Program-made: the position numbers and the translations under genes
The notes under the pieces: generated by a model
What the model was told of the DNA's origin: nothing
Seen by the model: only the letters and a program-made list of their open reading frames with translations
The model's database searches: none
Origin: Gracilimonas sp.
GTDB taxonomy: Bacteria > Bacteroidota > Rhodothermia > Balneolales > Balneolaceae
Assembly: GCF_040218225.1 (NCBI RefSeq)
Contig: NZ_JAVJQO010000002.1
Span: forward strand, 434,001-498,000
DNA length: 64,000 nt
Direction: 5' to 3'
In this document: in pieces, positions 5,045-33,982 of the stretch
Layout: every line of letters begins with the position of its first letter
Numbering within the stretch: the stretch's first letter is position 1

Positions 5045-5070
5045 TTATCGTTTAAGATTGGATATCTGAA

Positions 5071-8208: not shown

Positions 8209-8210
8209 AA

Positions 8211-10038: not shown

Positions 10039-10866
10039 TTAGCGTTTGTAAATGAGTGGGTTTAAGTCTGTTGCAGCTACATCTCCGGGTTCAAGTCCGG
10101 GTAAAAAAGCATCCCGGTCAGCATAATGTGCTTCCCGCTGAAATTCACTGACTTTCACTCCATCCTCCATGTAAATGATCGTCATTACAGCCCGGACTTT
10201 ATCTGACGTATTGGGGCCTGCCCGATGGAAAGTCCACCCACCATGGAAGCTTATTTCCCCGGCATCGAAACCTGAATCTACGAGTTCCAGATTTGCATCT
10301 GCCAGTTTTTGTTGGATTCTTGCTTCACTTTCGTCACTAATTTCCATATTACGACCAAAATCATATTTCTGGCTTTTTTTACTGAATGCAAGAGGCCCCA
10401 TATTTTGAGTGGTTTCCTGCAATGGAATCCAAGCGGTAATTGTATTATCCGTATCTAGTGGCCAATAGTATTGGTCGGCATGCCATGGAGTAATATTACT
10501 GGTTTTACCTGTTGGTTCTTTGTAAAGTGCCTGATCGTGATACAAACGCACACCTTCAACTTGCATTAAGTCTGCCGCAATTTTACCAAGTCTTTTGCTG
10601 AGTACCAGTTTTTTTATAATCTCATTGGAATTAAACAAGTTTCCAATTTGGATAAATGCTTTCTCAAAAGTTGAGCGCTCTTCCATGGGTTTCTTAATCA
10701 GCGGATTTTTCTCGTGTACCACTTTGGTGATTTCATCATTAAAATAGTCCAGTGTTTCCTGATCCAGAACATGCTTCAATTTTATGAACCCGTTTTCCTG
10801 ATAATATTCTATATCTCCGGGTTTCAATTCATAAGGTTCGCTTAATCTTTTCTCGATGTCATTCAT
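10039..10866 (-). CDS. Phytanoyl-CoA dioxygenase (PhyH) family Fe(II)/2-oxoglutarate oxygenase
   Basis: A 275-residue cytoplasmic protein. I chose the ATG at 10866 because it overlaps the nagB-like stop as ATGA; a longer frame from 10953 would run deep into that gene. PhyH landmarks are the iron-binding HxD (WHADQYYW), the distal His in FHGGWTFHRAGPN and a following Arg for 2-oxoglutarate. Family members hydroxylate or oxidatively demethylate small molecules. A role in a glycan locus is unusual; oxidative removal of a methyl or other substituent from a sugar is possible but is inference. It is followed by GH105 after 31 bases. Confidence 0.88.
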   Translation of the reverse strand: MNDIEKRLSEPYELKPGDIEYYQENGFIKLKHVLDQETLDYFNDEITKVVHEKNPLIKKPMEERSTFEKAFIQIGNLFNSNEIIKKLVLSKRLGKIAADLMQVEGVRLYHDQALYKEPTGKTSNITPWHADQYYWPLDTDNTITAWIPLQETTQNMGPLAFSKKSQKYDFGRNMEISDESEARIQQKLADANLELVDSGFDAGEISFHGGWTFHRAGPNTSDKVRAVMTIIYMEDGVKVSEFQREAHYADRDAFLPGLEPGDVAATDLNPLIYKR

Positions 10867-11627
10867 GATAGTTTCTCCATGATGTTTTTTGATGAGTGAG
10901 TGTCTAAGTAAAGTTTTGCATTCGGATGAAGCCGCAATACGGTAGATGGGCATTCTGTTGAAACAGGATGAAATACGGTTTTTGCAACCGCTTTGGCTTT
11001 AGCAGATCCGGGAACTACAACCGATAAGTAATCTGCCTTCATTAAAGTTGGGATGGTAAGTGTTACGGCAGTTTGCGGAACTTCATCCAGTGTTTTGAAT
11101 TGCCCGTCATTAACCTGTTGCTGTCTGCATATTTCATCCAGCTTTACTTCCTTAAACACTTCAGGGTCTTTAAAATCAGCTACAGGAGGATCATTAAATG
11201 CAAGATGCCCATTCTCTCCAATCCCAAGGCAGATAATATCGATATCCGCTTCGCTGATAAGGTTTGAGTAGGTTTCAAAATTGCTTTGTATGTAATGCAC
11301 TGCCCCAAATGGTTTGTACTGAAAAAGGTGTTCTTTTAGGAAATTACCAAACCTTTGAGGGGCTTCGTTTGTAATGGTATGATATTCATCCATATGAAAA
11401 GCGATAACCTTTTGCCATGGGATGTCATCAAACTCAAGCAGTTCTTCGAAGAATTCTTTTTGTGAAACAGCTGCTGCAAATACCATCCGAATGGATTCTT
11501 TCTCAGCTGAAACTTTCTTAATTCTTTCAGCTACCTCATGAGCAGCTTCCCTGCCCATAGTTTGCCGATCCTCTGCGATAGAGATTTTTAAATTACCTGC
11601 AATATGTTTTTTGATCGTACTCACCAC
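10863..11627 (-). CDS. nagB: Glucosamine-6-phosphate deaminase family protein (NagB-like)
   Basis: A 254-residue cytoplasmic protein of the NagB/SugP isomerase family. FHMDEYH corresponds to the NMDEY active-site loop, and LGIGENGHLAFNDPP corresponds to the GNDGHIAFNEP loop of E. coli NagB. Relative to E. coli, the Asp before Gly-His is Asn and the catalytic Glu of FNEP is Asp; the His is kept. True NagB converts glucosamine-6-phosphate to fructose-6-phosphate and ammonia. Following GH20 directly (9-base gap) fits hexosamine breakdown, though no NagA deacetylase is seen in the window. The variant loop leaves a related amino-sugar substrate possible. Confidence 0.85.
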   Translation of the reverse strand: MVSTIKKHIAGNLKISIAEDRQTMGREAAHEVAERIKKVSAEKESIRMVFAAAVSQKEFFEELLEFDDIPWQKVIAFHMDEYHTITNEAPQRFGNFLKEHLFQYKPFGAVHYIQSNFETYSNLISEADIDIICLGIGENGHLAFNDPPVADFKDPEVFKEVKLDEICRQQQVNDGQFKTLDEVPQTAVTLTIPTLMKADYLSVVVPGSAKAKAVAKTVFHPVSTECPSTVLRLHPNAKLYLDTHSSKNIMEKLS

Positions 11628-11636
11628 AATCTCGTC

Positions 11637-14201
11637 TTATTCAATAATTCTATATCGGTTCTTGTAACTGCGCATTTCCGAGTCCGGCAACCGAAAACTA
11701 AATGCCCAGTCACCGTTGCTGTTTGTTACTCTGATCATCAGGTGATTCCTTCCTTCACGAAGCGGTAAATACATCTCGTCTTCATCCAGTTTAAAATCTC
11801 TTTCCACATAATTTTTGTGCACCTGCTCTCCATTCACAAAAACTTCAATACCATCACTGCTTCCGGCCAATGCCCGAACTTTTCTGTCTTCAGGTACATC
11901 GATGTGGGCAAAAGCGTATCCAATTACATTTTCTGATCTGCCGTGAATTTCATCTAAATCAACTTTTGCAAAGTACGGTGTATTAACTCGTCTCCAGCGG
12001 TACTTCACATCATCATAGAAAAACTCTTCGGTCACATTAGGGAAAGTTTCTTCAATTCCGCTCATATCTTCCAGATGATCAACTCCCGGATCTTTATAGC
12101 CTCCCGGATTAGGAATGGGTTCAATCATCAGCCATCCCTGGAAATACCATCCTTCACTTTCTTCGATATCAAGACGGATTTCTGAAGGTGAAGGCAGCTC
12201 CTCTTCCTTATCAAAACCATAAGTTACGCTTAAAACAGAATCTCTTAATTCGGATAGGTTTGCAATCTGCATATCATACTTTTCAATTACCCGATCTAAG
12301 GCATACACTCTGTTTTCCATAGACCACAAGTGCTGATTCCGAGTCTTTAACTCAGTCAAATCAGTATAAGCTTCAGAAATAAGTCCATATGCTTTCACCA
12401 ATTTTGAACGGGCAGCCATTCTATCTTCATTCTGAATTGATAATGCCTCTGTATAATTAGAAGAAGCCTCCACCAATGCAGGGCGACTGGTAGCCATAAA
12501 CTTGTATAAATCGATGATGTGCTGGATGTATAAAAGATCTTCCTCATAGATCAGAGGGTCGTAGCTTTGTAGATGATCTTCTGCTTGCTGAGCTATGTCC
12601 ATCACCTTAGGCCAGTCCTGAATATTCATGAGAACAGTCTCTCCTTTTTCCGGAACTACTTTAGCCCAAATGATATCTTCATTCATCTTCTCTGTTGACT
12701 TCAAATTGGCCAACTCGTTTAGGGAATGAATAGCTTCAGAGAGTCCATTTCCTTCTGCTCCATATACCGCGCGGTTAAACCGGGTGTCATAAGTATCATC
12801 ATCGAAGTTACTGTGCCAGCTTTGGTCGGCCGCATAAGCTACTCCGTACCAATCTCTGGAGAACAGTGCAAAACCGCCATCATCCCAAACCGTATTTAAC
12901 ATACCCCAGGCACCTTGTTTTACTGTTTCTTCCATAAATCCACCGATATTTCCTCTAGCTACGTTAAAATCCGGAATAGTACTGTAGGAGTTCAGGATTC
13001 CTGTTGATACAAGTTGGGTAAAGCCCGCCTCTTTAAATGGAATAATTCTGTGGGAATAATCTTCCATAATGTCGTAACCCCACGTAATCAGGATGATATC
13101 TTTAGGAAGCAGTTCAAGCAGCTTGGGATGCTCGAGGGCAATATCTCCCCACATCATAACCTTCTTGCCCATGCCTGTAATAATCTTGTGTATTCTTTTG
13201 ATGTGATTTGCATACACCACTTCCATTCCCAAACTGTCCACCATTCCCTTAGAAGCGCCGGTGCCTAAATCAAAGGTTTCATCGGAATTGATGTGAAAGT
13301 AATCAGAGTGAAAAGCCGGGATCATTTCCGAATAAATATCTTCAAGGAGTTCATAACTTTCTTCAAAAGCCGGTGAAAGCAGCATCCCGCTTTCTCCCAA
13401 ATGTGCATACTCAGGATGCTTCAGGATCTGATCGAAGTGCCCAAATGATTGAAAGTTGCCAACCAGGTCAATGTGGAATTTTTTTGCGTAATCAGCTAAC
13501 TCTGCCCACTCGTCGATATCCAATGCACCGCCGGGAGGAGCAAATGCAGGGTGACTTTCTGTCTTCACCACATCCTGTGTATAGTACGTTAACAGATTGA
13601 TCTTCATCTCTGCCATACGCTCAATCTGCTGACGCATGTACTCTTTGGTTGGAACCGGACCACGACTTATATCATCCATCATGCCACGTATTTCCAGATC
13701 GGGCCAATCCGTAATCTTTAAAGCTGGTATTTCGCCTTCTTTTCGTTGGGTTCTCACCAATTGTTTTAAGGATTGAACGCCGTAAAAAGCACCTTTTATG
13801 GTATTTGAAGAGATTAAAATCAGATCCTTTGATACCATCAGTTGGTAGCCTTCATCTCCGATTTTGTCATTTGTACTTACTCCATACTTTTTAGCTAATC
13901 GATCAAATTTATTACTATCACCAAAAATCCCAACTACAATTTTATGGTCCGCTTTTGCGGAAATTTCCTTATCCAAGCTTTGCTGGAATTCCTTAGATAA
14001 TTGCTCAGCAAGAAAAGCTTCTTCTTCACTATCACTTAGATGAAATTCAATTGAAATATCCTCAGAAAGAGAAAACGTGCCCTGCATGAATTCAACCTGC
14101 TGGGGATTTGGAACCAGGTTTATATTCTGTTGAGCAACTACTGTATTTATACAGAGAGTAGTAAACAGAACTGCGAATAACGTATTTCGAATGGTTTTCA
14201 T
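11637..14201 (-). CDS. GH20 beta-N-acetylhexosaminidase-like enzyme, secreted
   Basis: An 854-residue secreted protein. I chose the ATG at 14201, which opens directly with a signal peptide (MKTIRNT... VVAQQ); a longer frame runs to 14237. Residues of about 30-160 are the GH20b-type N-terminal domain (LVPNPQQVEF). The TIM barrel covers about 160-490, with RGMMDDISRGPVPT, FGHFDQILKHPEY and the Asp307-Glu308 pair in HINSDET, which is the substrate-assisted catalytic pair. The C-terminal half adds helical and beta-sandwich regions, probably carbohydrate-binding. It should release N-acetylglucosamine or N-acetylgalactosamine from glycan ends. It begins 4 bases after the upstream TIM-barrel gene. 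Confidence 0.88.
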   Translation of the reverse strand: MKTIRNTLFAVLFTTLCINTVVAQQNINLVPNPQQVEFMQGTFSLSEDISIEFHLSDSEEEAFLAEQLSKEFQQSLDKEISAKADHKIVVGIFGDSNKFDRLAKKYGVSTNDKIGDEGYQLMVSKDLILISSNTIKGAFYGVQSLKQLVRTQRKEGEIPALKITDWPDLEIRGMMDDISRGPVPTKEYMRQQIERMAEMKINLLTYYTQDVVKTESHPAFAPPGGALDIDEWAELADYAKKFHIDLVGNFQSFGHFDQILKHPEYAHLGESGMLLSPAFEESYELLEDIYSEMIPAFHSDYFHINSDETFDLGTGASKGMVDSLGMEVVYANHIKRIHKIITGMGKKVMMWGDIALEHPKLLELLPKDIILITWGYDIMEDYSHRIIPFKEAGFTQLVSTGILNSYSTIPDFNVARGNIGGFMEETVKQGAWGMLNTVWDDGGFALFSRDWYGVAYAADQSWHSNFDDDTYDTRFNRAVYGAEGNGLSEAIHSLNELANLKSTEKMNEDIIWAKVVPEKGETVLMNIQDWPKVMDIAQQAEDHLQSYDPLIYEEDLLYIQHIIDLYKFMATSRPALVEASSNYTEALSIQNEDRMAARSKLVKAYGLISEAYTDLTELKTRNQHLWSMENRVYALDRVIEKYDMQIANLSELRDSVLSVTYGFDKEEELPSPSEIRLDIEESEGWYFQGWLMIEPIPNPGGYKDPGVDHLEDMSGIEETFPNVTEEFFYDDVKYRWRRVNTPYFAKVDLDEIHGRSENVIGYAFAHIDVPEDRKVRALAGSSDGIEVFVNGEQVHKNYVERDFKLDEDEMYLPLREGRNHLMIRVTNSNGDWAFSFRLPDSEMRSYKNRYRIIE

Positions 14202-14205
14202 AGTC

Positions 14206-15105
14206 TTATAGCTTTTCTTGAATAAATTTTGCGGCATGGGTATATGCTGAATCTAAATCGGCTACATCCGACTCATCTCCTCCGATATCAATCCCGAAAT
14301 GTCCTTTAAAACCAATTACATCTAAAGTCTCAAAGAAATCATCCCAACGGATTATTCCTTCTCCAATAGCCAGGTGTTCAACTTTTTTTCCTCTGTTATC
14401 CGAGATGTGGATGTAATCGATGTAATCTTTAAGTCTTCTTAGAGAAAGCTGGAGGTTATCCTTGAGGAAGTATTGATTGGCAGTATCGAAATTAAAACGA
14501 AGATTATCTCGCCCAACAGCATCATGAAAATGCAGAAAGGCATCTGTTGTAGAGGCTAAAACACCCAGAGCCGGATGCATTTGGTACGTAAGATTATAGT
14601 TTGCAGCAATGTCACATGCCTCCCGATACGTAGATGTAAGCTGCTCCCAATACTTTTTCCAATTCAGGTTTTCAGGGAATTTTGCTGCAAGAATTACATC
14701 TTCATGATAATGTCTTACAACCGGGATATCTTCCGGAAACTGATAGGGTGGTAAAGGAGCATTATCCAAAATTCCGACTGATCCTAAAGCAGAAGCAACT
14801 TCACAGCCTTTCTCAAATAACTCAAGATTGTGTTCTCTTTCTTTTGGATTATCTGATGAAAGTCCGGGCAATACCGCACAGAAATAGGGAACTTCCAGTT
14901 CCAGCTCTTTTACTTTTTTGCTGATGCCCTGACGCAATTCATACACCTCATTCAGGTGGTCTTCCCTGATACCTTCAAGCTCTATTGACTGAAAGCCCAT
15001 AGCTTTAAATTCATCCAGGTATTGGAGCGTATCTCCAGCTGGAGGGGGATACCCATACTTACTGATGGTATATAAATATGCACAAGTGATTCTTGAATTA
15101 ATCAT
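14206..15105 (-). CDS. Sugar phosphate isomerase/epimerase-like TIM barrel
   Basis: A 299-residue cytoplasmic protein of the xylose isomerase-like (AP endonuclease 2) superfamily. Likely metal ligands are visible in order: ELEGI (Glu), YQMHPALG (His), FNFDTANQ (Asp), HISDNRG (His/Asp) and the acidic IDIGGDE near the C-terminus. Relatives interconvert or epimerise keto sugars and inositols; the substrate here is open. Its start overlaps the 47-residue membrane-protein gene by 8 bases (ATGATTAA), implying translational coupling, and it is followed after 4 bases by GH20. Its role is probably conversion of an imported monosaccharide into central metabolism. Confidence 0.85.
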   Translation of the reverse strand: MINSRITCAYLYTISKYGYPPPAGDTLQYLDEFKAMGFQSIELEGIREDHLNEVYELRQGISKKVKELELEVPYFCAVLPGLSSDNPKEREHNLELFEKGCEVASALGSVGILDNAPLPPYQFPEDIPVVRHYHEDVILAAKFPENLNWKKYWEQLTSTYREACDIAANYNLTYQMHPALGVLASTTDAFLHFHDAVGRDNLRFNFDTANQYFLKDNLQLSLRRLKDYIDYIHISDNRGKKVEHLAIGEGIIRWDDFFETLDVIGFKGHFGIDIGGDESDVADLDSAYTHAAKFIQEKL

Positions 15106-15241
15106 TGTTCTGTAAATCGGGGTCGTTAAAAAGTTCTTTAATCTCAGCTATTCCTTTTACCGAAACAATTCCTGCAATCACAAAAAATATAATCGCAAAT
15201 ACTCCAAATATGATCATCCAAATCATGGTAGCTTCATTCAT
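15098..15241 (-). CDS. 47-residue single-span membrane protein, likely symporter accessory subunit
   Basis: A small protein with one strongly hydrophobic helix (about residues 6-27, MIWMIIFGVF... GIVSV) and a charged C-terminal tail ending DPDLQNND. I chose the ATG at 15241; a longer frame from 15304 has no support. It overlaps the SSS symporter stop by 8 bases (ATGAATGA) and the next gene by 8 bases (ATGATTAA), so it is translationally coupled on both sides. Small accessory proteins encoded beside SSS symporters are known from other bacteria, and that role is the best guess here. No function is proven. Confidence 0.7.
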   Translation of the reverse strand: MNEATMIWMIIFGVFAIIFFVIAGIVSVKGIAEIKELFNDPDLQNND

Positions 15242-16727
15242 AACTAATCTCCGCTTCGTTAATAATTTTGGCCGGATATTTCTTCTGTGTAGCCAACGAA
15301 CCAACTATCATACCTAAAGCTGCAAGAATAAAACTAAGAAACCCTGCGATGTTAACATCTGTTGCGAATGCAAGCCAAGACGGCAATTCAGATGAGAATT
15401 TTTCCAAAAGCAGAAAGGCTGCCGGAGTTACCGCTCCTAAAATTAATGCAGCCTGAGCCCCTACATCGTTCGCCTTTTTCCAATATAAACCGGCTGTAAC
15501 GGTGCCCAAAGCACCTGCTGTGTACATGGTCCCCGTTATAAATATGTACTGAAAAGCCGTTTCAGGAATTTGATACCATAGTCCAAATACGAGCAAGAAA
15601 AGCCCAATCAATCCTGATATAAATCTGGATATGAGCATTTTGGTTTGCTCACTAAATCCGCCCGGTTTCAAAATTGAAATAACATCCAAAGTTATCACCG
15701 AACTCCAGGCGAGTACATACGAACTATAGGTAGACATAGAAGCTGCTAACAAACCTGCTACCAACAAACCGAGTAAGCCAACCGGAACCAATTCACCAAG
15801 TAACATGGGCATGGCGGCTGCACTATTCTCGCCAGCACCGAAGTAGGCGAAAGCAGCAACTCCCCAGAACATTGGAATCATGGCTCTTCCGGCAAAAGTA
15901 AGTCCTGTAATCCAAAATACTTTCTTAGCTACTTCAGGACTTTCAGATGATAATGCCTTGGATGTACCCGGCTGCCATAGTGCAGCAGCGGCAACATTTG
16001 TCACCAGGATCCAGACTATAAAGCTCCAGCCAAACCTTGGATTTTCTATTGGATTAAAACCACCGCTGCCAAAACCTGACATTACGGATTCGGAAATCAG
16101 GCTTAGATCAACTTCCAGCAGAACGATTATAGTCGTAGCAAGCATTGCAAATGAAAGCACCACATATTGCATGAAATCTGTAATGACAACTGAAAACATT
16201 CCCCCGAGAATGGTGTACGACATTACCACAATTAGCATCAAGGTCATAATAAACCCCAAAGCCTGTGGCCCAAAACCCATTACTTCGGAAAGAAATATTC
16301 CGTCAAATTTCAAAAAGATTCCCATATTCAGCACACCTCCAACAAACAGAATCAGGCCGCCGGTTACCCGAACTTTCTTATTGAACCTGAGTTCATAGAA
16401 TTCAGGAATGGTCATCATTCCATAGTGCCGGAGTTTTTCAATAATAAAGCCAGTTTTCCCAACTGTTGTGTATGCTATCATAGCCAGAATTCCAATGACA
16501 AAGCATGAGAAACCTGTCACATATCCCAGTTCCCCAAAGTAAACGAAGGTTACCGTACCTAACTCAGTAGCGGTAAAAGTAGCCACGCCCAGCGAAACTT
16601 TAATCTTCCGGCCGGCTACCATATAACCACTAAGATTCTGAACATACCTCTTCACCCAGATACCCACATAGACGGTAACTGACAAATAGGTAATTAGTAT
16701 TATCCAGTCTATTGGTGTGAAATTCAT
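15234..16727 (-). CDS. Sodium:solute symporter (SSS family), second of the locus
   Basis: A 497-residue membrane protein with about 13 TM segments and the SSS signature around YMVAGRKIK and FTATELGTVTF. It is shorter than the other SSS carrier of this locus and lacks its acidic loop, so the two are not recent copies and may take different substrates. Its ATG overlaps the upstream GATase-like stop by 4 bases (ATGA), and its 3' end overlaps the small membrane protein gene. It probably imports a sugar or sugar acid released by the GH2/GH20 set; the substrate is not readable from the sequence. Confidence 0.93.
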   Translation of the reverse strand: MNFTPIDWIILITYLSVTVYVGIWVKRYVQNLSGYMVAGRKIKVSLGVATFTATELGTVTFVYFGELGYVTGFSCFVIGILAMIAYTTVGKTGFIIEKLRHYGMMTIPEFYELRFNKKVRVTGGLILFVGGVLNMGIFLKFDGIFLSEVMGFGPQALGFIMTLMLIVVMSYTILGGMFSVVITDFMQYVVLSFAMLATTIIVLLEVDLSLISESVMSGFGSGGFNPIENPRFGWSFIVWILVTNVAAAALWQPGTSKALSSESPEVAKKVFWITGLTFAGRAMIPMFWGVAAFAYFGAGENSAAAMPMLLGELVPVGLLGLLVAGLLAASMSTYSSYVLAWSSVITLDVISILKPGGFSEQTKMLISRFISGLIGLFLLVFGLWYQIPETAFQYIFITGTMYTAGALGTVTAGLYWKKANDVGAQAALILGAVTPAAFLLLEKFSSELPSWLAFATDVNIAGFLSFILAALGMIVGSLATQKKYPAKIINEAEISYE

Positions 16728-17555: not shown

Positions 17556-19403
17556 TTATTTTATATCGGGTATCAGGAATCCTGATTTAGGTTCCTTTGG
17601 GCGGTGGTCATCCAGAATCTTTTCAAATGAATTCCAATGATCTCTTAACTTGAATGCCACACTTTTTGGGTGACGGTCGCGTGTAAATACACCTTTCTTG
17701 TTTAGTACAACTCTGCGGAAATGCTGTGGCGTCATAAAATCGGCGAAGTTCCATACATGGGCTCCGGCAACAAAATCTCTCTGTTCCATGACCTCCAGAT
17801 ATTTAAAAATAAAAGCCGTCTGAAATTCTTCCGTAAACATTTGTGCAGTAGTAGCATGCAAGCCTTCCACTGTATCTGCACCAAACTCAGTAACCATCAT
17901 TGGCTTGCCATATTTTTCAAATGTGGCATCCAGTTCTCTGGCTAAATCTTTACCTGCCTGCTCCAGGTCTACCGGCTTTGTGTACCAACCATAGTATCTG
18001 TTTATTCCAATGATATCACACGATTCCAGCACTACATCTTCTTCTTTATGTGCTGCCATAGAAATTGACATGATGGGGCGGCTGTTATCTAATTCCTTTG
18101 TGAACTCATACAACTCTTTAAAATACTTTTTACTGGCATCATTTTGATAAAATTCTTCAGCCCATAGATTTGGTTCATTAGTAATGGACCATGAAATCAC
18201 ACTCGGGTGGTTCTTATCCCTTTTTATTAATTCCCTGATCGCTTTTTTATGATTATCGAGCAGTGGTTTTAATTCATTAAAATCATCTGACCAAAACCCC
18301 AGACTTACCGCCGGAACCTCGTCTATCACCAGGAAACCAAGCTTGTCTGCCAAACGCATCATTTCTTCATCGTAGGGATAATGACTTGTCCGGTATGAGT
18401 TGGCACCAATCCATCGCATTAATTCATGATCTTTAAGGTATGCCGGACGAAACTGGCCTCTCCCCACAATTGGAAAGTCTTCGTGCTTACCAAAACCACT
18501 CATAAAAAGCGGCTCATTGTTAAACATCACTTTTCCTCCTTCAACCCGAACTTCACGAATACCAAATTGCTCGTGATATTCATCTATAACCTTACCTTCT
18601 TTTATCAGAGAAATTGTAGCGGTGTACAGATAAGGATTTGAAGGAGACCACCAAACAGGGTCATCTATGGAAAGTTCACACTTTCCGTTTTTACTTTGGC
18701 TTTCAGCTATTTTTTGATCATCCGCAGACAAGATCTGGACATTATAGTCCAGATCCCCTTTTATGTCTGCGGTGATGGTTACTTGTCCTTCCAGAGTAGA
18801 AGTAATGGAGGTATCTTTAATAAACTCTTTGGGAGTTGTAACCAGTTGTACAGAGCGTGTGAGCCCGCCATACGGGAAAAAATCAAATCGGGTGGCCGGA
18901 TAAAGATGCCGGCGTTCATAGCTTGGCGTATTGTAAAGCGGTGATTCCGGGCTTACGTCCTGTGGAATGGTATGCATCGACAGAGAACTGTCTACACAAA
19001 CCACAAGGTGATTCTTCTGGCCTTTATCAGTAAGTGCGTCTGTTAAGTCTAATTCAAAAGGCAGAAACCCTCCTGAATGTTCACCTATAAAATGTCCATT
19101 CAGCCAGACTTCTGCCTTATGATCAGCAGCGGCAACACGCAGCCAAACTTTGTTTTTATCCTGAATTGCCTCGGGAATGGAAAAATATGTTTCATGCCAT
19201 GCTTTACCCACATAGTTGCGCAATCCTTGCTCTGCAAGCTGTTCATTCCAGGATCCCGGAATAGCTATAGAATGCACTTCCCCGGATAGTTTATTCTTAT
19301 ACCATTTTTCCTGATGACCTTTTGCATCAGGATCTGCTTTTAAATTCCAGTACCCACTTAAATCAAATACTGCGCGAAAATTATTTTGTTGTGGAAAGAG
19401 CAT
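17556..19403 (-). CDS. GH2 beta-glucuronidase, cytoplasmic
   Basis: A 615-residue GH2 enzyme with no signal peptide, so probably cytoplasmic. The domain order is a jelly-roll sugar-binding domain (about 1-190), an immunoglobulin-like domain (about 190-285) and a TIM barrel (about 285-600). The acid/base is Glu410 in TNEPN, the nucleophile is Glu506 in TEFGAD, and the NKKG motif at 568-571 recognises the glucuronate carboxylate. That motif separates beta-glucuronidases from beta-galactosidases. It releases glucuronic acid from imported oligosaccharides. This enzyme is the best evidence that the target glycan contains beta-linked glucuronic (or galacturonic) acid. It lies 33 bases after the Nramp-like gene. 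Confidence 0.92.
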   Translation of the reverse strand: MLFPQQNNFRAVFDLSGYWNLKADPDAKGHQEKWYKNKLSGEVHSIAIPGSWNEQLAEQGLRNYVGKAWHETYFSIPEAIQDKNKVWLRVAAADHKAEVWLNGHFIGEHSGGFLPFELDLTDALTDKGQKNHLVVCVDSSLSMHTIPQDVSPESPLYNTPSYERRHLYPATRFDFFPYGGLTRSVQLVTTPKEFIKDTSITSTLEGQVTITADIKGDLDYNVQILSADDQKIAESQSKNGKCELSIDDPVWWSPSNPYLYTATISLIKEGKVIDEYHEQFGIREVRVEGGKVMFNNEPLFMSGFGKHEDFPIVGRGQFRPAYLKDHELMRWIGANSYRTSHYPYDEEMMRLADKLGFLVIDEVPAVSLGFWSDDFNELKPLLDNHKKAIRELIKRDKNHPSVISWSITNEPNLWAEEFYQNDASKKYFKELYEFTKELDNSRPIMSISMAAHKEEDVVLESCDIIGINRYYGWYTKPVDLEQAGKDLARELDATFEKYGKPMMVTEFGADTVEGLHATTAQMFTEEFQTAFIFKYLEVMEQRDFVAGAHVWNFADFMTPQHFRRVVLNKKGVFTRDRHPKSVAFKLRDHWNSFEKILDDHRPKEPKSGFLIPDIK

Positions 19404-19436: not shown

Positions 19437-20693
19437 CTAAATCCCAAAAATCCCAATGATTCCCAGTACTGCCATTATGAGTGAAAAGAGAAAAATCACA
19501 CCCAAAACTACATTTTTGGCTGGTTTGAGAGCATGTTCTCCCACCACCTCTTTTCGATTCATAAGAATGATCATAAACAAAATGACAACCGGAGTAACTG
19601 TAGCGATAAACGCCTGGGACAATATCATTATGAAGACGGGTCTGCCTCCAAATAACGGCACCGTGAGAGTTAATAAAACGATGCCTAGTGAGATTAATCT
19701 GTTCGTCTTGGATTGAAAGTCAGGATTCACCCCCTGATAATCCGAAAGCAGCATGGGAGCCAGCATAATGTGGGGAAACAATGAAGAAAGTCCTGCAGCC
19801 AGAATACCACCCACAAAAATTGAAACAGCAAATCGTCCGGCAAAAGGCTCAAGAAGGCGTACCATATCTATGGCATTATCTACCTTCATACCCTGCTGAT
19901 GCAATGTGCCCGCTGCAGCTGCCATCACCGCAATACTTAATACAAACATCAAAATGGCTGATATCTTTGCGTCTCTTTTTTCGAGTTTAAACTGTTCGAC
20001 TCCCCATCCTTTTCCTTTAATAAGCACCGAGCGAACTACATAAATTACGGCCCCCATCGTTGTGCCAACCATACTTGCGATAAGCAAGAAGGCTCCAGAT
20101 TCATTAGGGACTCCGGAAACAATGCCCGCGATTACTTCCGATGGTTCAGGAATCACCATAAACATGGTAATTATGAAGCTCAGCCCCATCACTCCTACAA
20201 ATACCGCGAGCACTTTCTCGAAGAAGTTTTGCTTACCCTTCCAAAGCAAAGCATACAATGCCCCACCAAAGAAAATAGTTGAGTATAGCGGATCTATTCC
20301 TGCACCGGATGCTGTAAGTGGACGCGTCCACTCCTGAGTAACCTGGGTCACTATGGCCATGACCCCAATACATCCTACTGCCTCTGTAAATATTAAAGCA
20401 ATAAGTACAAACAAGCCTGCAGGTTTACCGAAGTGCTTTTTATAACTGTGAATAACTGTATCACCGGTCACAATTGTATACTTGCCAAAAAGAACAATAA
20501 GTATGTACGTAAAAATGCAGGAAAGCATTAACGGCCATGCCATTCTCATCCCATACTCAGCTCCGGTAGAAGCCATTGAAGTTACACTTCCGGTTCCAAT
20601 ATTGTAACCAATGATGAACAATCCCGGCCCAATAGAGATAATGAAAAGCTTAAACTTTTCCAGAAAACCTGTTTTTGATAGTGAATCTGACAT
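19437..20693 (-). CDS. Nramp-related transporter lacking the metal-binding motif
   Basis: A 418-residue membrane protein with about 11 TM segments and overall Nramp (SLC11) resemblance. In TM1, the canonical metal-binding DPGN is replaced (GPGLFIIGYNIGTGS). In TM6, the canonical Met-Pro-His stretch is replaced (GAVIYVVRS). It therefore should not be a classical Mn2+/Fe2+ transporter. It sits between the large lipoprotein (6-base gap) and the GH2 gene (33-base gap), suggesting that it carries an organic substrate such as a uronic acid or glycoside. That is inference from context. A second non-canonical Nramp-like gene lies with the 5-oxoprolinase genes. Confidence 0.85.
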   Translation of the reverse strand: MSDSLSKTGFLEKFKLFIISIGPGLFIIGYNIGTGSVTSMASTGAEYGMRMAWPLMLSCIFTYILIVLFGKYTIVTGDTVIHSYKKHFGKPAGLFVLIALIFTEAVGCIGVMAIVTQVTQEWTRPLTASGAGIDPLYSTIFFGGALYALLWKGKQNFFEKVLAVFVGVMGLSFIITMFMVIPEPSEVIAGIVSGVPNESGAFLLIASMVGTTMGAVIYVVRSVLIKGKGWGVEQFKLEKRDAKISAILMFVLSIAVMAAAAGTLHQQGMKVDNAIDMVRLLEPFAGRFAVSIFVGGILAAGLSSLFPHIMLAPMLLSDYQGVNPDFQSKTNRLISLGIVLLTLTVPLFGGRPVFIMILSQAFIATVTPVVILFMIILMNRKEVVGEHALKPAKNVVLGVIFLFSLIMAVLGIIGIFGI

Positions 20694-20699
20694 CTACAC

Positions 20700-23285
20700 T
20701 TATTTAGAAATTTGTTGAATAGAAATATTGACTAACTGTTTAGATGGCAGCTTTAACCGGATTCTATCACCACCTTTATTTATGGTGATATCCCTTGATT
20801 CGAAAGTCTCTCCCCGGGTGATTAATTTCATTTTGTAGTTCCCTTTCGAAAGTTGCCAGGAGCGCATGGTTAGTTCTTCATCCTTCTCTGAAAAAGAATA
20901 AAGATCTGCTTCCAGCATTGTCGAATCACTATCTGTAACCAAATAGGTAATATCCCTGCTGGCATCTTCCCAGCTTACCGCTATATAAGGTGAGGAGCTT
21001 TCAGCAATACCGTATCCCGTAACCATACCTTGTACAATGCCTATTTCTCGTGCATTACCTGGCCCGATATGAATACGATCGGTATGGATTGCTTCCGTAG
21101 TAAATAGCGGATAGTTGTAGCGGATAGTTTCCAGGTAGGGTTGAATACCCTCAACCAAATAACTGGTATTACCAGAAAGTCTGTATTTAATGAATGGAGT
21201 GCCATGAGCAATGATTAAATCATCATAGTCTGTATAGCCAGTAAGCAATCGCCAGGTACCAACTACATTCCAAAACCCATCACTGTTACCCAGCTGATAA
21301 GCAGCCCAGCCTTCAGAACCCTCTTCAAAAGGATTATCCGACTTCATCAGATAGCTGTCATACTTTGAAACCAAATCTAAATGCTGAACAAAAGGCTTCA
21401 GGTACTTATCGTTGCCTGTCATTGTCCAGGTAAATAGCAGCTGATCCAGAATAGCGCTCCCTCCGCTCCAGTCGAAGTAATCCCAAAACATATTTGCCGT
21501 ATACCAGTTGTCTTCACTTCCGTTAAATTCTTCAGACGGAAATGCTACAGAAGCTGGTATTATACCCAAAGGTTTACCCTTATCGGTTTTTTGAGATACA
21601 GCCAGCCAGCCATCTGCCCATTCTTTAAGAGCTGTTACAGTAGGTTCATCCTGTGTTTTCCAGGCATAATACCGAACTGCTTTTGCAGCACGTGTGGTAT
21701 ATGGAACATCCCGGTTTTTGGGCGGTTCTGTTTCTATTTCTGTTGAGCTAAACCACGCTGATTTAAAAAAGCGGTGGTTATTATCATTAAACCCTGTCCA
21801 CAAGTCCTTAAAATATTTTGCAGAATAGGATAATCGCTCTTCATATTTGGTATCGTCATTATACAAAACCATAAGAGGAGCTGTATCAGAAATAAATTCT
21901 GAGGAGTGTTCTACATCACTTGGGTTCTTGGCATATCCCTTATATACTTTTGAGCTGTTCCAAACGCCATCGGCCAACTTCTTCCATCCCTGATACACCA
22001 CAGAATCACCCGATAATATCAACGGTGACCAAAAGCGCAGAATCTCAACATCATCGCCGTATTTTCCTCCAAATTCACCTCGTTCGTCCTGCTGCTCCAG
22101 CACCCACCAGTCGGCAATATGCTTCAACCGATTGGTTACTTCCCATTGGGCAAAAGCCCAATCAGGAGCATTCGATGGCTTTTTAACATTATCAAAAGGA
22201 TCTCCGTTATCAATTTTCTCTCCGTTGTACATTCGAACCAACTCATTCTGAGGATGAAGCTCTAGCATTTTAGCTAAATCTCTTTCGGCCGCATCCTTCT
22301 CATAATGAATTCCTCTTTCGAGCCATAACCAGTACAGCAATCTCCCTCTGTACCAAAGTTCCCGTTCATAGAGTGGGTTTTCATCTGCTCCTTCGTAATT
22401 TAGGAGTCCATCGTAAAGCATTACCGTTTGATGCAGGTGATCAAACAGCCCTAATTCAGTTTGTTCGGTGTATTTGCTCCAACCCCGGTACCAAAAGTAT
22501 TTCTCTGCTTTCTTCAAGATTTGGAGCTGTAGTTTCCAGAATGCTGCAAAGTTCTCGTATTCTTCTTGTTGAGCCAACCGATCCAGTTTTTCTATCATTG
22601 GCTCCAGTTTTTCTTCACTATCAAAACCACCGGCAGATTTCATTTCTTCATAAATCTCTGCTGCCTTTCCCTTTGGTTCTGAATCCGGAATTACTGAAAA
22701 TCCGAGAAGCCGAAATACATCTTCATTCCCTACAAAGTCTAATTGAAGACCCTGATCTTCTACCGTCACTTTTTGCTGGATCACACGATATATTTTCTGA
22801 ATGCTTTCCCGCTCTTCAGAATTGGGAGTAAATGTTTGTAGCCAGGGAGTAATATTTTTACCATTAGCTATTATGTTTGCTGTGCTTGAATCTTCTAGCC
22901 CTGCTTCAAACCAAACGGTAACCCACCATTCTCCCTTGGAAATATCCGCTTTGAAATTTAGCTCATCCCCTGCAATTCCATCTATCAGGAAAGCGTCTCG
23001 GGAAGGTTCCCAACCTTCATGAAAAAAGCTTTCGCCTTTATTATTACTGAGCCAGCCATATCCATTTTCTTTGGAATACTGCCAGCTTGCCGTCAAAGGA
23101 ACACCATTATCTGAAAGCTCAGACTGAGCTGCTCCCGCATCAAAAAAATAGGGTTGCTGTTGAAAAGATATGGGTTCGGGTTGGTTTACTGATTTGCATG
23201 ATCCGAATACAACGAGCATACAAGCCAAACACCACCAGAAATGTATATAGCTTTTGTACAAATTCTTTTTCGACTTCTTAAACAT
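20700..23285 (-). CDS. Large lipoprotein of unknown family, probably glycan-active
   Basis: An 861-residue protein with a lipobox VFGSC (Cys30). About residues 40-180 form a beta-rich domain beginning YFFDAGAA, resembling the binding modules seen at the N-terminus of polysaccharide-degrading enzymes. The rest (about 200-800) is helix-rich, full of Trp/Tyr and repeated helical segments (for example WFSSTEIETEPP, FVQHLDLVSKYDSYL, GIGPGN-like HIGPGNAREIG), compatible with an (alpha/alpha) toroid. A small beta domain ends the protein. I do not recognise the family and see no certain catalytic residues. Its operon position makes a lyase or hydrolase role attractive, especially as GH105 needs a lyase product. 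Confidence 0.6.
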   Translation of the reverse strand: MFKKSKKNLYKSYIHFWWCLACMLVVFGSCKSVNQPEPISFQQQPYFFDAGAAQSELSDNGVPLTASWQYSKENGYGWLSNNKGESFFHEGWEPSRDAFLIDGIAGDELNFKADISKGEWWVTVWFEAGLEDSSTANIIANGKNITPWLQTFTPNSEERESIQKIYRVIQQKVTVEDQGLQLDFVGNEDVFRLLGFSVIPDSEPKGKAAEIYEEMKSAGGFDSEEKLEPMIEKLDRLAQQEEYENFAAFWKLQLQILKKAEKYFWYRGWSKYTEQTELGLFDHLHQTVMLYDGLLNYEGADENPLYERELWYRGRLLYWLWLERGIHYEKDAAERDLAKMLELHPQNELVRMYNGEKIDNGDPFDNVKKPSNAPDWAFAQWEVTNRLKHIADWWVLEQQDERGEFGGKYGDDVEILRFWSPLILSGDSVVYQGWKKLADGVWNSSKVYKGYAKNPSDVEHSSEFISDTAPLMVLYNDDTKYEERLSYSAKYFKDLWTGFNDNNHRFFKSAWFSSTEIETEPPKNRDVPYTTRAAKAVRYYAWKTQDEPTVTALKEWADGWLAVSQKTDKGKPLGIIPASVAFPSEEFNGSEDNWYTANMFWDYFDWSGGSAILDQLLFTWTMTGNDKYLKPFVQHLDLVSKYDSYLMKSDNPFEEGSEGWAAYQLGNSDGFWNVVGTWRLLTGYTDYDDLIIAHGTPFIKYRLSGNTSYLVEGIQPYLETIRYNYPLFTTEAIHTDRIHIGPGNAREIGIVQGMVTGYGIAESSSPYIAVSWEDASRDITYLVTDSDSTMLEADLYSFSEKDEELTMRSWQLSKGNYKMKLITRGETFESRDITINKGGDRIRLKLPSKQLVNISIQQISK

Positions 23286-23358: not shown

Positions 23359-24948
23359 TTACTTGATAAGAGTCATTCTTCCGGTTTTCACAAAACTATT
23401 GTTACCAGCATTAGCTGTAACTCTGTAAATGTATAACCCGGATGTGAGACTGGAAGCATCAATCTTAATATTTTGGTTACTTCCTGCACTCATTCTTTGA
23501 GCAGGAATAGTCATCACCCGCTGACCAATCACACTAAATACATCAACACTTACATTAGCAGCTTCTGACAGGTTGAATGAAATATTGGTAGTTGGGTTGA
23601 ATGGATTTGGATAATTACCATTTAGCTTAAATGATTGAGGAGCATCTTTTCCAGGCTCTTCAACTTCATTGCTTACGGTCATACCGCCATGCCAGATTAA
23701 TGAACCAAGTTGCTGACCTGAGGTACCCGCAGTATAAGAATCAAAGGTAGCTGCGTATCCAAAGTCGAATGGTTCGCCATCAGTTGGCATATCCGGTTGA
23801 GAAGCATCCGGAGTTGCGTAGAATGAAGTCATAACATCTACAGGAACTGCCGGACCATTTGTAAAGGTGACATCCTCTGAGATGTTTGAACTTCCGGTAC
23901 CCGCAGCCTCAATATAAGACACAGCGTTGGCATTAAAATCCACTGCTGGAAGAACGGAGTCAGGATAGGCATCGGTTAATGACTGATCTCTGTAAATGTT
24001 ATTATTGCTGATAGTTACCGAGGCTTCACCCAGAGAATCTATCTGCGCCTGTGAAAGAGGATCAACACGTACTACGAACAATGATTCCTCTGCAACCTCA
24101 GATTCCGGTCTTCCCATGAAGGCACCATTAATAACCAGGTTATTGGTAAAGTATGCTTCAACAACTTGTCCAAATTCGAAGGCACCATTTTTTCCAATAT
24201 TCACAACTGTGTTATGGTTAATATTGGCATAGTTTATTTCTCCACCAGCATCTCGTAATACCTGACTGGTAATATTATAGAATGTGTTGTTCTCCATAAC
24301 AAGAGTATCAATCTGACTTCCTCGGTCATCAATTACGCGTCCATTATCCAAACTGGCTGTAGTACCGATGTTGCTAATTGTAGAATTGGTTATAAAAATC
24401 CGATTCCCCGAATTGTCAATTCGGAATGCAGCCTGTCCATCTTTGTCAAGATGACAATCATCAACTGTGATGGTAACATCATTTTCACTTACGCGAATAA
24501 TTCTCAAATCACCATTTAAGGCACCGGTATTATCTTCTCCGGTAATATAAAGTCCTCGTACAGTTAAGTCTCCACGTGCACGAATGGGGCGGCTAGAAAC
24601 TCCTCCCTCTCCAGCGGCAGGAACAAGCATTGGTCGCTCTCCTTCGCCTTCTTCAGCAACAATGGATAGATGATATCCTCTATTCTGTATACTTCCTTCC
24701 AAAGCATAAAATCCACCACGCTCAAGAACATAAACGGTATTCGAATCCACACGTGCACCTGTTTCGGTAGTATCACTGGCAATTGCCTCATTTAAGGTTC
24801 CTAAACCAGGCTCTACATTTACTGTTCGCTGTGCAAATACATCATTACTCGCAAACAACATCACTGCTGCTACTAGCAACAGTTTCGATATAAACCCTAA
24901 TAGTTTTTTACTATTTATGGGCCTCCTTGTAGTATAAGTAGTATTCAT
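23359..24948 (-). CDS. Secreted beta-helix protein with T9SS sorting domain (DUF4957/DUF5123-like)
   Basis: A 529-residue protein with a signal peptide (cleavage near VFAQ) and a parallel beta-helix (about 45-300) with repeated NNTFYNITS / NHNTVVNIG / TNNLVINGAF rungs, as in pectate-lyase-like folds of DUF4957/DUF5123 proteins. A linker follows, then a type A T9SS sorting domain (last 80 or so residues, NYPNPFNPTT). Its position right after the TonB receptor suggests a surface glycan-binding or lyase-like role, perhaps replacing the missing SusD. I cannot point to lyase catalytic residues. The ATG at 24948 has a strong AAGGAGG ribosome-binding site. Confidence 0.8.
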   Translation of the reverse strand: MNTTYTTRRPINSKKLLGFISKLLLVAAVMLFASNDVFAQRTVNVEPGLGTLNEAIASDTTETGARVDSNTVYVLERGGFYALEGSIQNRGYHLSIVAEEGEGERPMLVPAAGEGGVSSRPIRARGDLTVRGLYITGEDNTGALNGDLRIIRVSENDVTITVDDCHLDKDGQAAFRIDNSGNRIFITNSTISNIGTTASLDNGRVIDDRGSQIDTLVMENNTFYNITSQVLRDAGGEINYANINHNTVVNIGKNGAFEFGQVVEAYFTNNLVINGAFMGRPESEVAEESLFVVRVDPLSQAQIDSLGEASVTISNNNIYRDQSLTDAYPDSVLPAVDFNANAVSYIEAAGTGSSNISEDVTFTNGPAVPVDVMTSFYATPDASQPDMPTDGEPFDFGYAATFDSYTAGTSGQQLGSLIWHGGMTVSNEVEEPGKDAPQSFKLNGNYPNPFNPTTNISFNLSEAANVSVDVFSVIGQRVMTIPAQRMSAGSNQNIKIDASSLTSGLYIYRVTANAGNNSFVKTGRMTLIK

Positions 24949-25006: not shown

Positions 25007-27865
25007 CTAAAATCTATATCTAACCCCAACATCTGCGGTTAAACCAAAAACTTCATTCTCTCCCGTAAACTGCCTTGCACCTGTAAAAGAGCTTTCTGAT
25101 TCGCGAGTGAAGTTGTTGACGTTTAGGAAAAACACAAATGAATCCAGGCTTTTGAATTGCTGATTAATTACCAAATCCCAGTATCCGTAAGCATCTGCCA
25201 CTATATCTGACTCTGGAAGCCGGCCTACACGCTCAAGAATTTCACGCTGGTAGGAGTAGGAGACACGTCCGGAAAATCCACCTTTTTCATAACCGATTGT
25301 CAAACTGGATACGAAGTCTGGCTGTCCGGGAAGTTTTCCTGCCCGGGAAGAATCTTTATAGATAGGGTTGAACGGCGGCTCCGGATTATTACCGGCCACC
25401 ACTAATAATGGAAAGAACGTCTCCGATTCTATAAAAGAAACGTTGGCATTCAGTATTAAACCATCCAGAGGTTTGGGTAAAAACCTGAAGTCTGTTTGCA
25501 AATCCAATTCTACACCACGAACGGTAGATTCACTCCCATTTATGGGTTCTGTTAAACTAAAACCGGCAAATTCTCCTTCCCGAACCCTGGTTTCTGCAAT
25601 GTAGTCGATGTCGTCTAGTTCTTTATAGAACGCTCCGACTGAGAAATAACCAAGGCTGCTTTTATAGAATGAAAGGAATACGTCATAGTTTATAGCTTTG
25701 GTATGCTTAATGTTTGGATTACCGCGGCTAATGGTAAACTCTGCCTCATTTATAAATTCAGATGGAATCAAATTATAATAATCAGGACGAGACAAGGTTC
25801 TGGTAACAGCTAGTCTCAGATCAATTCCTTCAATAATGTTTAATTTGAGATGAGCCATGGGCAGTAGCTCTCCATAGTTTTGCCCACCCGTTGTATCTCT
25901 GAGGGTTCCGCTTCTGCCAAGGTTATTAAACAGATTGCCATAATACCCTTCATAATAATTTTCGGTGTATTCATAGCGAACACCTGGAAGAAACATCAAC
26001 TTAGAACCCAAATTGATTTCTGTCATTATATAGGCTGCTGAAATATTCTCTCCCGCCGTGTAATCTGATAGTTCTACATAACGATTGGGATCATACTGGT
26101 CTTTATAATTTCTATAAAACTGGTTCAAGAGATTGTCATCTAACCCAGGACCAAAATCGTATTCACCATCCAAGAAGCCATTGGCTTTAAAATCCGGATC
26201 CAAGAAATTACTAATCAGTATATGCTCATCATTATATAATTCATATTGATCACTATTCGCTTGTCCAATATCACTTATCACTCCAAAATCTGTTTGATAG
26301 GAGTCTATATCTTGTATTCTTTTTTTATCCCTGTATTTCGCTCCAAATTTCAGATACCCCGAAGTATTGCCAAAGAGTTCATATGGAATCTCCATATTTA
26401 ATTCTCCCGTTACGTCTCTATCACTCCCTTCTTTAGGATCAAAAGTGCTGTACAAAAAGTAGGTTTCACTCAACTCATTTCTGGCGAACTGTGGAATAGG
26501 TTCTGGACCTTGATTATCAACCAGGCCATTCTCATAAGCTGTTAATTCCTGGAATCTGGAATACACTGAATATGGGCGCTCTGTAAGCGTATAAGAATGC
26601 GCTGCCTGCCAATCTAGTTTTGCCCAGCCCAGTTCATGCTCGCCTCTTAAAGAATTGGAAAATACTTGTTCATTGATTTGCCGATCTCTTAAATCGTACT
26701 CAACACGCCCATTTCCTACTCTGTATCTTTTTCGTCTTCTCAGTTCATCCCGGTCCGTTCTCCCCCAAAAACTGCTGAAGAAAAATTGAGAGTCTTCAGA
26801 TAAGTCATAATCCAAAGAAACACTGGCACCGTACCTCTCTCGTGTTTCATAAGTATCAGCCAGGTTAAGGTTCTCAATTTCCACACTTCCCGACTCTTGC
26901 CGGTACACGTAATCAGCTTCTAATAGATCAGAACTTCGATTTACCTTTTGAATACTACCTGTAACCAATAAGCCAAGCTTATCGTCGAAAAAACGGTCAC
27001 TTAAGTTAATACTAGCCTTATATTGCCCAAATTCATTTTCTAAATCATTATATCCTGTTTGGACACGAGCACTACCGCTGAAATCAGATTGAGCTTCTCT
27101 TACCAAAAGATTAACTGTACCCCCAATAGCATCGCCATCTTTATCTGGTGTAAGTGCCTTAAACACTTCAATCCCTCCTAATACATCAGGTGGAATTAAA
27201 CTAAGATCAACAGATCGGTTATTCTCATCTGTTCCGGGAATACGCACCCCATTAACTGTAATAGAGTTAAATTTTGGGGATAAACCTCTTACCACTACTT
27301 TTTGTGCCTCACCAGCATTTCGCTGCACTGAAACCCCAGGCAATCTCCCTACCGATTCAGCTGCATTTTGATCAGGCAATTCATTTATTCGTTCCGCTGA
27401 CACAACATTTACAATTGTGTTAGATTGAATCTGGTCTTTTATTGCAGCTGCCTGACCTGCTGCCTGCGCCAATACCTGAACCTCTTCACCGGTAATAAAA
27501 TCGGGTAATAAAGAAATGTTGAGAATGGTTGTGCCACCACCAGAAATAACTATACTAAAAACTTGTGTTTTATAACCCAGGTAAGAGAAACGCACATCAT
27601 ATTCACCTTCAGGGATTGATTCTATTCTATAATTTCCATCACTATCAGTGGCAGCCCCTCTGGAAATTTCTGCTATATATATATTAGCCCCTAAAATTGC
27701 CTCATTATTAGTTGAGTCTACCACCTGCCCTTCCAGAACACCTACAGACTGCGCTTGAATAGCCACAGGAAGGCTCAATGCAAAAACTAACATGACTATT
27801 TGTATTACGGGAGGCATCACACCTTTAGAGTTATCTAAAAGCTCGGTTTTTACAGTCCAACTCAT
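25007..27865 (-). CDS. TonB-dependent outer-membrane receptor with carboxypeptidase-regulatory-like domain
   Basis: A 952-residue TonB-dependent receptor. It has a signal peptide ending AIQAQ, a carboxypeptidase regulatory-like (CNA-B-type) domain (about 42-125), a plug domain (about 140-260, with NELPDQNAAESVGRLPGVSVQR and VVVRGLSP) and a 22-strand barrel ending in the C-terminal Phe (VGVRYRF). The IKDQIQSN and AESVGRLPG segments resemble carbohydrate-type receptors that work without SusD. It is the first gene of the catabolic operon and would import oligosaccharides over the outer membrane. An alternative start at 27817 (MPPVIQ) is preceded by AAAGG. The 291 bases upstream are AT-rich, with no supported gene. 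Confidence 0.92.
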   Translation of the reverse strand: MSWTVKTELLDNSKGVMPPVIQIVMLVFALSLPVAIQAQSVGVLEGQVVDSTNNEAILGANIYIAEISRGAATDSDGNYRIESIPEGEYDVRFSYLGYKTQVFSIVISGGGTTILNISLLPDFITGEEVQVLAQAAGQAAAIKDQIQSNTIVNVVSAERINELPDQNAAESVGRLPGVSVQRNAGEAQKVVVRGLSPKFNSITVNGVRIPGTDENNRSVDLSLIPPDVLGGIEVFKALTPDKDGDAIGGTVNLLVREAQSDFSGSARVQTGYNDLENEFGQYKASINLSDRFFDDKLGLLVTGSIQKVNRSSDLLEADYVYRQESGSVEIENLNLADTYETRERYGASVSLDYDLSEDSQFFFSSFWGRTDRDELRRRKRYRVGNGRVEYDLRDRQINEQVFSNSLRGEHELGWAKLDWQAAHSYTLTERPYSVYSRFQELTAYENGLVDNQGPEPIPQFARNELSETYFLYSTFDPKEGSDRDVTGELNMEIPYELFGNTSGYLKFGAKYRDKKRIQDIDSYQTDFGVISDIGQANSDQYELYNDEHILISNFLDPDFKANGFLDGEYDFGPGLDDNLLNQFYRNYKDQYDPNRYVELSDYTAGENISAAYIMTEINLGSKLMFLPGVRYEYTENYYEGYYGNLFNNLGRSGTLRDTTGGQNYGELLPMAHLKLNIIEGIDLRLAVTRTLSRPDYYNLIPSEFINEAEFTISRGNPNIKHTKAINYDVFLSFYKSSLGYFSVGAFYKELDDIDYIAETRVREGEFAGFSLTEPINGSESTVRGVELDLQTDFRFLPKPLDGLILNANVSFIESETFFPLLVVAGNNPEPPFNPIYKDSSRAGKLPGQPDFVSSLTIGYEKGGFSGRVSYSYQREILERVGRLPESDIVADAYGYWDLVINQQFKSLDSFVFFLNVNNFTRESESSFTGARQFTGENEVFGLTADVGVRYRF

Positions 27866-32589: not shown

Positions 32590-32591
32590 AG

Positions 32592-33827: not shown

Positions 33828-33982
33828 ATTTGAGTATATAGTACCTAACTCATAAAATCCCAAACGGATTTACGCTTCTAAACAAAATGAAATTTGAGTT
33901 ATCTTAAGAAACGCCCTAAACAATTAGATAAAAATTAGTGTTGAGGGATAAATTATAATTCAAAAAAATCTTTCACCTCAAT

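Follow-up and report, generated by a model that had tools for sequence, protein, structure and literature searches.

What does a protein of the Nramp fold carry when the residues that hold the metal are missing and its gene lies among enzymes of glycan breakdown? The question is raised by one gene (19437-20693, reverse strand) in a 64,000-nucleotide stretch of a Gracilimonas sp. genome, referred to here as the window. The gene is an intact open reading frame of 418 amino acids without an internal stop. Its product was matched by the Pfam Nramp profile (PF01566, the Nramp/SLC11 fold family) over residues 37-389 at 183.9 bits against a cut-off of 29.8, with positions 1-355 of the 357 in the profile covered; at an E value of 6e-54 the family assignment is not due to chance, and the reading frame and fold given in a preliminary description of the window hold. 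The best PDB sequence matches were Nramp-type metal carriers at remote levels (10ky, E 1.8e-15; 7qia, E 1.1e-14; MntH chains from 6e-11), and the NCBIfam “divalent metal transporter” model scored 60.9 bits with a cut-off of 50. The Gracilimonas genome held two further PF01566 matches above cut-off, one of them also in the window (32592-33863). An AlphaFold model, made from an alignment of four rows (the window protein, its relatives L005 and L006, and the second Nramp of the window), had a pLDDT of 52.5 and was too poor for use.

The substrate site and the gene cluster

Site residues were read from an alignment of the window protein to E. coli MntH and are given in DraNramp numbering, partly after PMC6398981 and PMC12873925. 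In TM1, D56, P57, G58, and N59 correspond to G33, T34, G35, and S36, such that the metal-binding DPGN is replaced by GTGS (codons at 20586-20597, reverse strand). The TM3 positions D131, E134, and E124 were C, V, and I, and the canonical proton path lacks its TM3 portion; the Gln of TM10 was kept (Q360). In TM6, M230, P231, H232, and H237 correspond to G214, A215, V216, and R221: the unwound region reads GTTMGAV (residues 210-216; 20046-20066, reverse strand) in place of GATIMPH, and Arg221 (20031-20033, reverse strand) falls in the column of H237, which sits further along TM6b (PMC6398981, in part). None of the positions compared with MntH held an acidic ligand, and no displaced but intact metal site was seen in that alignment. 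The preliminary description was thus right that DPGN and the Met of TM6 are missing. The protein lacks the DPGN, the MPH, and the TM3 acids of canonical metal Nramps and, with TM1, TM3, and TM6 scored, belongs with the “Nramp-related” proteins, which have neither the canonical TM1/TM6 nor the TM3 motif. The Arg of TM6, its clade-wide pattern, and the lack of DPGN in the window's second Nramp (32592-33863) as well are points beyond that description.

The gene lies within a run of 14 genes (5071-27865), all on the reverse strand and separated by no more than 128 bp. A SusC-like TonB-dependent receptor (25007-27865) heads the cluster; before the Nramp gene come a protein with a type IX secretion sorting tail (23359-24948) and an 861-amino-acid protein (20700-23285) that has no Pfam, NCBIfam, or PDB sequence match and is possibly a new family of glycan-active enzymes. 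Next after the Nramp gene, and 33 bp from it, comes a GH2 beta-glucuronidase (17556-19403; Pfam and NCBIfam), which scored 625 bits against the NCBIfam cut-off of 544, so that the neighbor named in the preliminary description is confirmed. There follow a GATase1-like protein (PF07090; 16724-17521), an SSF-family symporter as the second carrier of the cluster (15234-16727; Pfam and NCBIfam), a TIM-barrel sugar isomerase/epimerase-like protein (14206-15105; Pfam), a GH20/hexosaminidase-like protein (11637-14237; Pfam), a glucosamine-6-phosphate deaminase-like protein (PF01182; 10863-11627), a PhyH-type dioxygenase-like protein (10039-10953), a GH88/GH105-like unsaturated glycuronyl hydrolase (8211-10007; Pfam), a second SSF-family symporter (6436-8208), and a GH28-like protein (5071-6429). 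This order was largely common to six distinct relatives (L005, L006, L038, L040, L041, and L042), which share the SusC-like receptor, the secreted protein, the 861-amino-acid protein as the conserved immediate upstream neighbor, the Nramp, and the GH2 beta-glucuronidase, and further on the TIM-barrel epimerase, the GH20-like and NagB-like proteins, and PhyH. In these window-like loci an SSF symporter lies 4 kb from the Nramp; the window has another further on.

The second Nramp of the window has different surroundings. At 30241-33863, pxpC, pxpB, and pxpA are followed in a row by a GPGT-class Nramp (32592-33863), and from its gene content this stretch reads as a unit for 5-oxoproline uptake and breakdown of the PxpT/YcsG kind. 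The pxp genes (30241-32589) adjoin this Nramp and not the one at 19437-20693. At least two pxp genes were found beside 23 of the 29 GPGT-class proteins sampled; among GTGS-class loci, pxp genes were in view only in the window and its near relative L038.

The GTGS/Arg clade and its neighborhoods

A search of genome contigs with the window protein alone yielded only two close relatives. In a sample of the phylum, 186 of 296 genomes gave at least one match at E ≤ 1e-5, and the identities fell into two clearly separated sets: 20 places lay at 38-100%, and the other matches listed were at 29% or below. The close class (E ≤ 1e-40) was present in 43 of 249 genomes of family f26, 43 of 150 of f29, and 20 of 244 of the window's class. 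Flanks were taken for 80 loci of the GTGS class (2 + 78; two duplicates) and for 42 loci with other Nramps. Two loci, L039 and L106, were dropped because their proteins exactly duplicate those of L005 and L006, and the locus comparison left out the window, L037, L058, and the second Nramp of L083. The latter locus holds a tandem of differing Nramp-fold genes (6657-7907 and 7989-9230), one of the GPGS class and one of the GTGS class.

Alignment of 125 Nramp proteins, 79 with GTGS and 46 others, placed Arg in the 221 column of all 79 GTGS rows from the sampled Bacteroidota and of none of the 46 others, which had H (27), M (5), Y (4), E (4), Q (3), G (2), or F (1) there. The TM1 classes of the others were GPGT (29), DAGG (5), GSGS (4), GPGS (3), DPGN (2), GAGD (2), and GGGS (1). 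Rows labelled by the GTGS string were the same set as that found by score, and R221 was not used in the labelling. In our trees, which are unrooted, the 79 GTGS proteins formed one side of a single branch (SH-aLRT 99); this clade was recovered with the motif columns removed and under a mixture model with 55 of the 126 rows (UFBoot 100/SH-aLRT 98). The window protein, with GTGS, the TM6 Arg, and its place on this branch (Pfam, alignment, and trees agreeing), is therefore confirmed as part of a separate Nramp clade with an invariant TM6 Arg.

The clade extends to E. coli. A protein of an accessory operon, annotated in RefSeq as a divalent metal transporter, fell inside it nearest to group III (52% identity), with GTGS in TM1 and Arg in TM6. 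The operon was present at 80% of its length or more in 546 of 5426 complete genomes, and the Nramp gene itself in 545. In the dnaB-qorA interval (L166, 2526-8223), the Nramp gene (4947-6176) lies between genes for a CoA-transferase and an enoyl-CoA hydratase on one side and an FAD-oxidoreductase on the other, beside a LacI-type regulator; this arrangement suggests acid catabolism. The frame of the Nramp gene is broken in one record (CP054241, L037), and in one E. coli genome an IS5 lies in or by the gene. CP054241.1 was deposited as an 834-kb E. coli plasmid, yet the part examined carries ordinary chromosomal genes (tyrB, alr, dnaB, dusA), which suggests an error of assembly or labelling in the record.

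Marker genes (alginate lyase, uronate pathway, NagA/NagB, TIM epimerase, and GH20) were found in 55 of 78 clade loci versus none of the 42 loci of other Nramps (Fisher 6e-16), a contrast that is partly post hoc because UxuA, NagA, a ManA-like protein, and PL17 joined the marker set only once loci had been inspected. Alginate lyase or uronate genes alone gave 28 of 78 versus 0 of 42 (8e-7). With the first marker set, single-marker contrasts were modest: 7 of 78 versus 0 of 42 for KDPG aldolase (p 0.044) and 10 of 78 versus 2 of 42 for SusC (p 0.14).

The preliminary description had proposed a phylogeny read against neighboring genes; here, tree groups I to V each carried sugar markers, and the control loci had none (0 of 42) for each group's marker set. 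Many loci end early at contig ends. Group I (13 loci) had the TIM epimerase in all 13, GH20 in 9, NagA/B in 6, and alginate lyase in none. Group II (16 loci) had alginate lyases in 9, the uronate pathway (UxuA, UxaC, ManA-like, KdgK, or KDPG aldolase) in 5, and either in 10. That pathway marked 12 of the 19 loci of group III, including UxuA in 8, UxaC in 3, and the ManA-like protein in 6. Group IV (22 loci) had NagA or NagB in 16, both in 14, and alginate lyase in none; uronate or lyase genes were found in 4 of the 6 group V loci. No sugar marker was seen in 23 of the 78 loci, including both of group VI, one of which (L055) has histidine kinase and HerA-like neighbors. In five loci (L100, L096, L091, L104, and L119) a ManA-like protein of 364-409 amino acids, of the mannose-6-phosphate isomerase type, occurs with UxuA near the clade carrier, UxaC was not found, and the ManA-like protein may take the place of glucuronate isomerase. 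A glycosylasparaginase-like gene (PF01112) directly adjoins the clade carrier in two loci (L047, 10780-11784; L109, 9426-10433), which raises GlcNAc-Asn as a possible cargo for some members of group IV.

Co-location was also examined by coordinates alone, within 15 kb of 55 clade places in 43 f26 genomes. Alginate lyase lay within this radius of 25 places (0.60 expected from genome coverage), KDPG aldolase of 13 (0.73 expected), and glucosamine isomerase of 12 (0.91 expected). For the 32 members whose flanks had not been seen, alginate lyase was within 15 kb in 22 (0.47 expected), such that most adjoin alginate lyases, and KDPG aldolase in 11 (0.41 expected); glucosamine isomerase was not enriched near these members (1 of 32; 0.42 expected). 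The expected counts treat each place as a random position, and since relatives share history the effective number in this test is smaller.

Within 5.5 kb, the clade Nramp was the only polytopic protein (at least six membrane segments, counted from a simple hydropathy profile) in 58 of the 76 loci of groups I to V; the window-like loci, with their nearby SSF symporter, are among the exceptions. As a general hexuronate carrier the clade was rejected: among 40 f26 uxuA loci fetched, none had a clade Nramp within 8 kb and 13 had a TRAP DctM, so the clade is not the usual carrier of hexuronates.

Candidate cargoes

With no recognizable metal site and with sugar-polymer gene clusters across its clade, the window protein is probably an inner-membrane importer of glycan-derived monosaccharides and not of metals. 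Judging from its neighbors, its cargo would most likely be a glucuronate-type sugar (hexuronate) or an N-acetylhexosamine. We infer the following route. The SusC-like receptor would let a polymer into the periplasm, and the glucuronidase, GH88/105, GH28, and hexosaminidase enzymes would cut it; the Nramp-fold carrier, beside the two SSF symporters, would move the released sugar into the cytoplasm, where the TIM-barrel isomerase and the deaminase-like enzyme would receive it. The two symporters could carry the same sugars. Within the carrier, the substrate may be held by the broken TM1 helix on one side and, on the other, by a stretch of small TM6 residues that Arg221 follows, with the Gly-Thr-Gly-Ser loop offering backbone amides and hydroxyls and Arg221 pairing with a carboxylate or carbonyl of the substrate. 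Such a site, made of backbone amides, Thr/Ser hydroxyls, small TM6 residues, and an Arg, would suit a hydroxylated and often anionic sugar rather than a bare dication, although an Arg for carboxylates does not obviously fit GlcNAc. APC amino-acid carriers have Gly-x-Gly loops that bind carboxylates, and these resemble the TM1 Gly-x-Gly of both the GPGT and the GTGS/Arg classes, two noncanonical Nramp classes that point to organic cargo. Neighbors differ between the groups of the clade (uronates, amino sugars, and a CoA-linked acid), so no single cargo fits the whole of it.

The preliminary description had suggested a change of cargo from metals to an organic acid or sugar. The organic cargo is supported by the contrast in neighborhoods with other Nramps, the whole-genome co-location, the frequent status as sole polytopic protein, and the acid-free site with its invariant Arg. 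The direction of change is not supported: rooted trees in the available part of PMC12873925 place Nramp-related proteins as a paraphyletic set outside the metal-binding canonical Nramps, so that the metal site looks like the derived state.

The main rival is metal supply for neighboring enzymes, in which Mn2+, Mg2+, or Fe2+ would pass through a remodelled site to serve UxuA, NagA, and the TIM-barrel isomerases of the operons; we consider it unlikely. The enzyme families beside clade carriers are often metal-dependent, which counts in its favor. EleNRMT moves Mg2+ and Mn2+ without DPGN (PMC8806188, in part), and overexpression of B. subtilis YcsG/MntG, which is reported to import Mn2+, increases the Mn2+ content of the cell (PMC10448178, in part), so a missing DPGN is by itself no proof of a non-metal cargo; Nramp-related proteins of this DPGN-less kind are also taken for likely metal transporters in PMC13060092 (in part). 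However, EleNRMT retains the Asp of TM1, a residue described as universally conserved across SLC11 (PMC8806188, in part), whereas the clade has Gly there in all 79 rows, no acid at the TM3 positions compared, and the invariant TM6 Arg. Moreover, where the clade Nramp is the sole polytopic protein near catabolic genes, as in most loci, a metal cargo would leave the sugar without a local importer.

Somewhat more doubtful is a cargo of small carboxylates or amino-acid-like compounds, with the glycan neighbors reflecting by-products such as sugar-linked amino acids and short acids. Such a cargo would accord with PxpT, which carries 5-oxoproline (PMC13274462, in part), with the CoA-transferase genes beside the E. 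coli member, with the glycosylasparaginase-like gene adjoining two group IV members, and with the likeness of the GXG loop to that of APC carriers; yet the loci of groups II and III belong to sugar-acid pathways, the gene families recognized there include none for amino acids, and group IV has NagA and NagB. Export or balancing during polymer breakdown (e.g., of divalent cations freed from gelled uronate polymers, alginate and pectin being binders of Ca2+), or sensing without transport, would agree with the co-location with alginate lyases but is very improbable, given that groups I and IV had no such lyase (0 of 13 and 0 of 22), that cations freed outside the cell would need no inner-membrane carrier, and that the characterized family members covered here are importers.

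Import of glycan-derived sugars thus remains our preferred reading for the window protein. We extend it only tentatively to the proposal that a Bacteroidota-wide branch of the Nramp/SLC11 family, found also in about one in ten complete E. coli genomes, consists of sugar-acid and amino-sugar importers with a TM1 Gly-x-Gly and a TM6 Arg, which together with PxpT would imply an organic-solute origin of the fold and a later metal site. If these proteins do carry sugars, the label “divalent metal transporter” (NCBIfam, E. coli RefSeq) misnames a large set of proteins, many clusters for alginate, uronates, and amino sugars gain the importer they lacked, and proximity to Nramp over NSS can no longer be assumed to denote a metal carrier (PMC13060092, in part). 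The clade also opens to testing the long-standing question of how a LeuT-fold site was converted between binding an organic anion or sugar and binding a bare metal ion.

Comparison with known systems

Searches of the open literature turned up neither a paper in which a protein of the Nramp fold is assigned a sugar or uronate as cargo nor an assay of a member of the GTGS/Arg clade; Salmonella papers considered as leads mention mouse Nramp only and were dropped. Motif-less Nramp-related proteins are already known, all but two of their groups being called “entirely uncharacterized” in the available part of PMC12873925. An Nramp in an alginate cluster is known as well: one is drawn among the alginolytic systems of Alteromonas sp. 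76-1 (PMC6431674, in part), a setting like that of group II as far as its description goes, but there it is named a metal-ion transporter.

Several known systems share features with the window protein. Canonical Nramp/MntH proteins (DraNramp, E. coli MntH, and BfraNramp) share its fold family and the TM10 Gln, but all of their tested metal and TM3 proton residues are replaced in it and the sequence match is remote only. The NRMT-like Mg2+ carriers are likewise Nramp-related, without canonical DPGN/MPH and with altered proton-path residues; they keep the TM1 Asp, however, and the five control rows with DAGG belong to another branch, with no sugar marker in any of their loci, whereas the window protein has Gly33 and not the DxxG signature. 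The ExuT-type MFS and TRAP (DctM) hexuronate carriers match the proposed role and operon slot, and their folds are unrelated to that of Nramp; some group II and uxuA loci carry MFS/TRAP carriers instead of, or alongside, the clade Nramp.

PxpT of Corynebacterium, a likely counterpart of the GPGT class with 50% identity to YcsG, proved necessary for growth on 5-oxoproline in deletion and complementation experiments (PMC13274462, in part); YcsG/MntG itself is placed in “G-motif 3” (PMC12873925, in part). Like these, the GTGS clade has the Nramp fold, Gly for the TM1 Asp, and genes beside enzymes that break down organic compounds. Unlike it, PxpT/YcsG proteins form a separate branch with GPGT in TM1, no Arg in the TM6 column, and a tie to pxpABC; the protein at 19437-20693 has neither their TM1 motif, their branch, nor their neighbors. 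Against these systems, what appears new, as far as the open literature shows, is the definition of a clade by GTGS and a TM6 Arg, its statistical link with the catabolism of sugar acids and amino sugars, the fact that it is usually the sole polytopic protein in its neighborhood, and its presence in E. coli.
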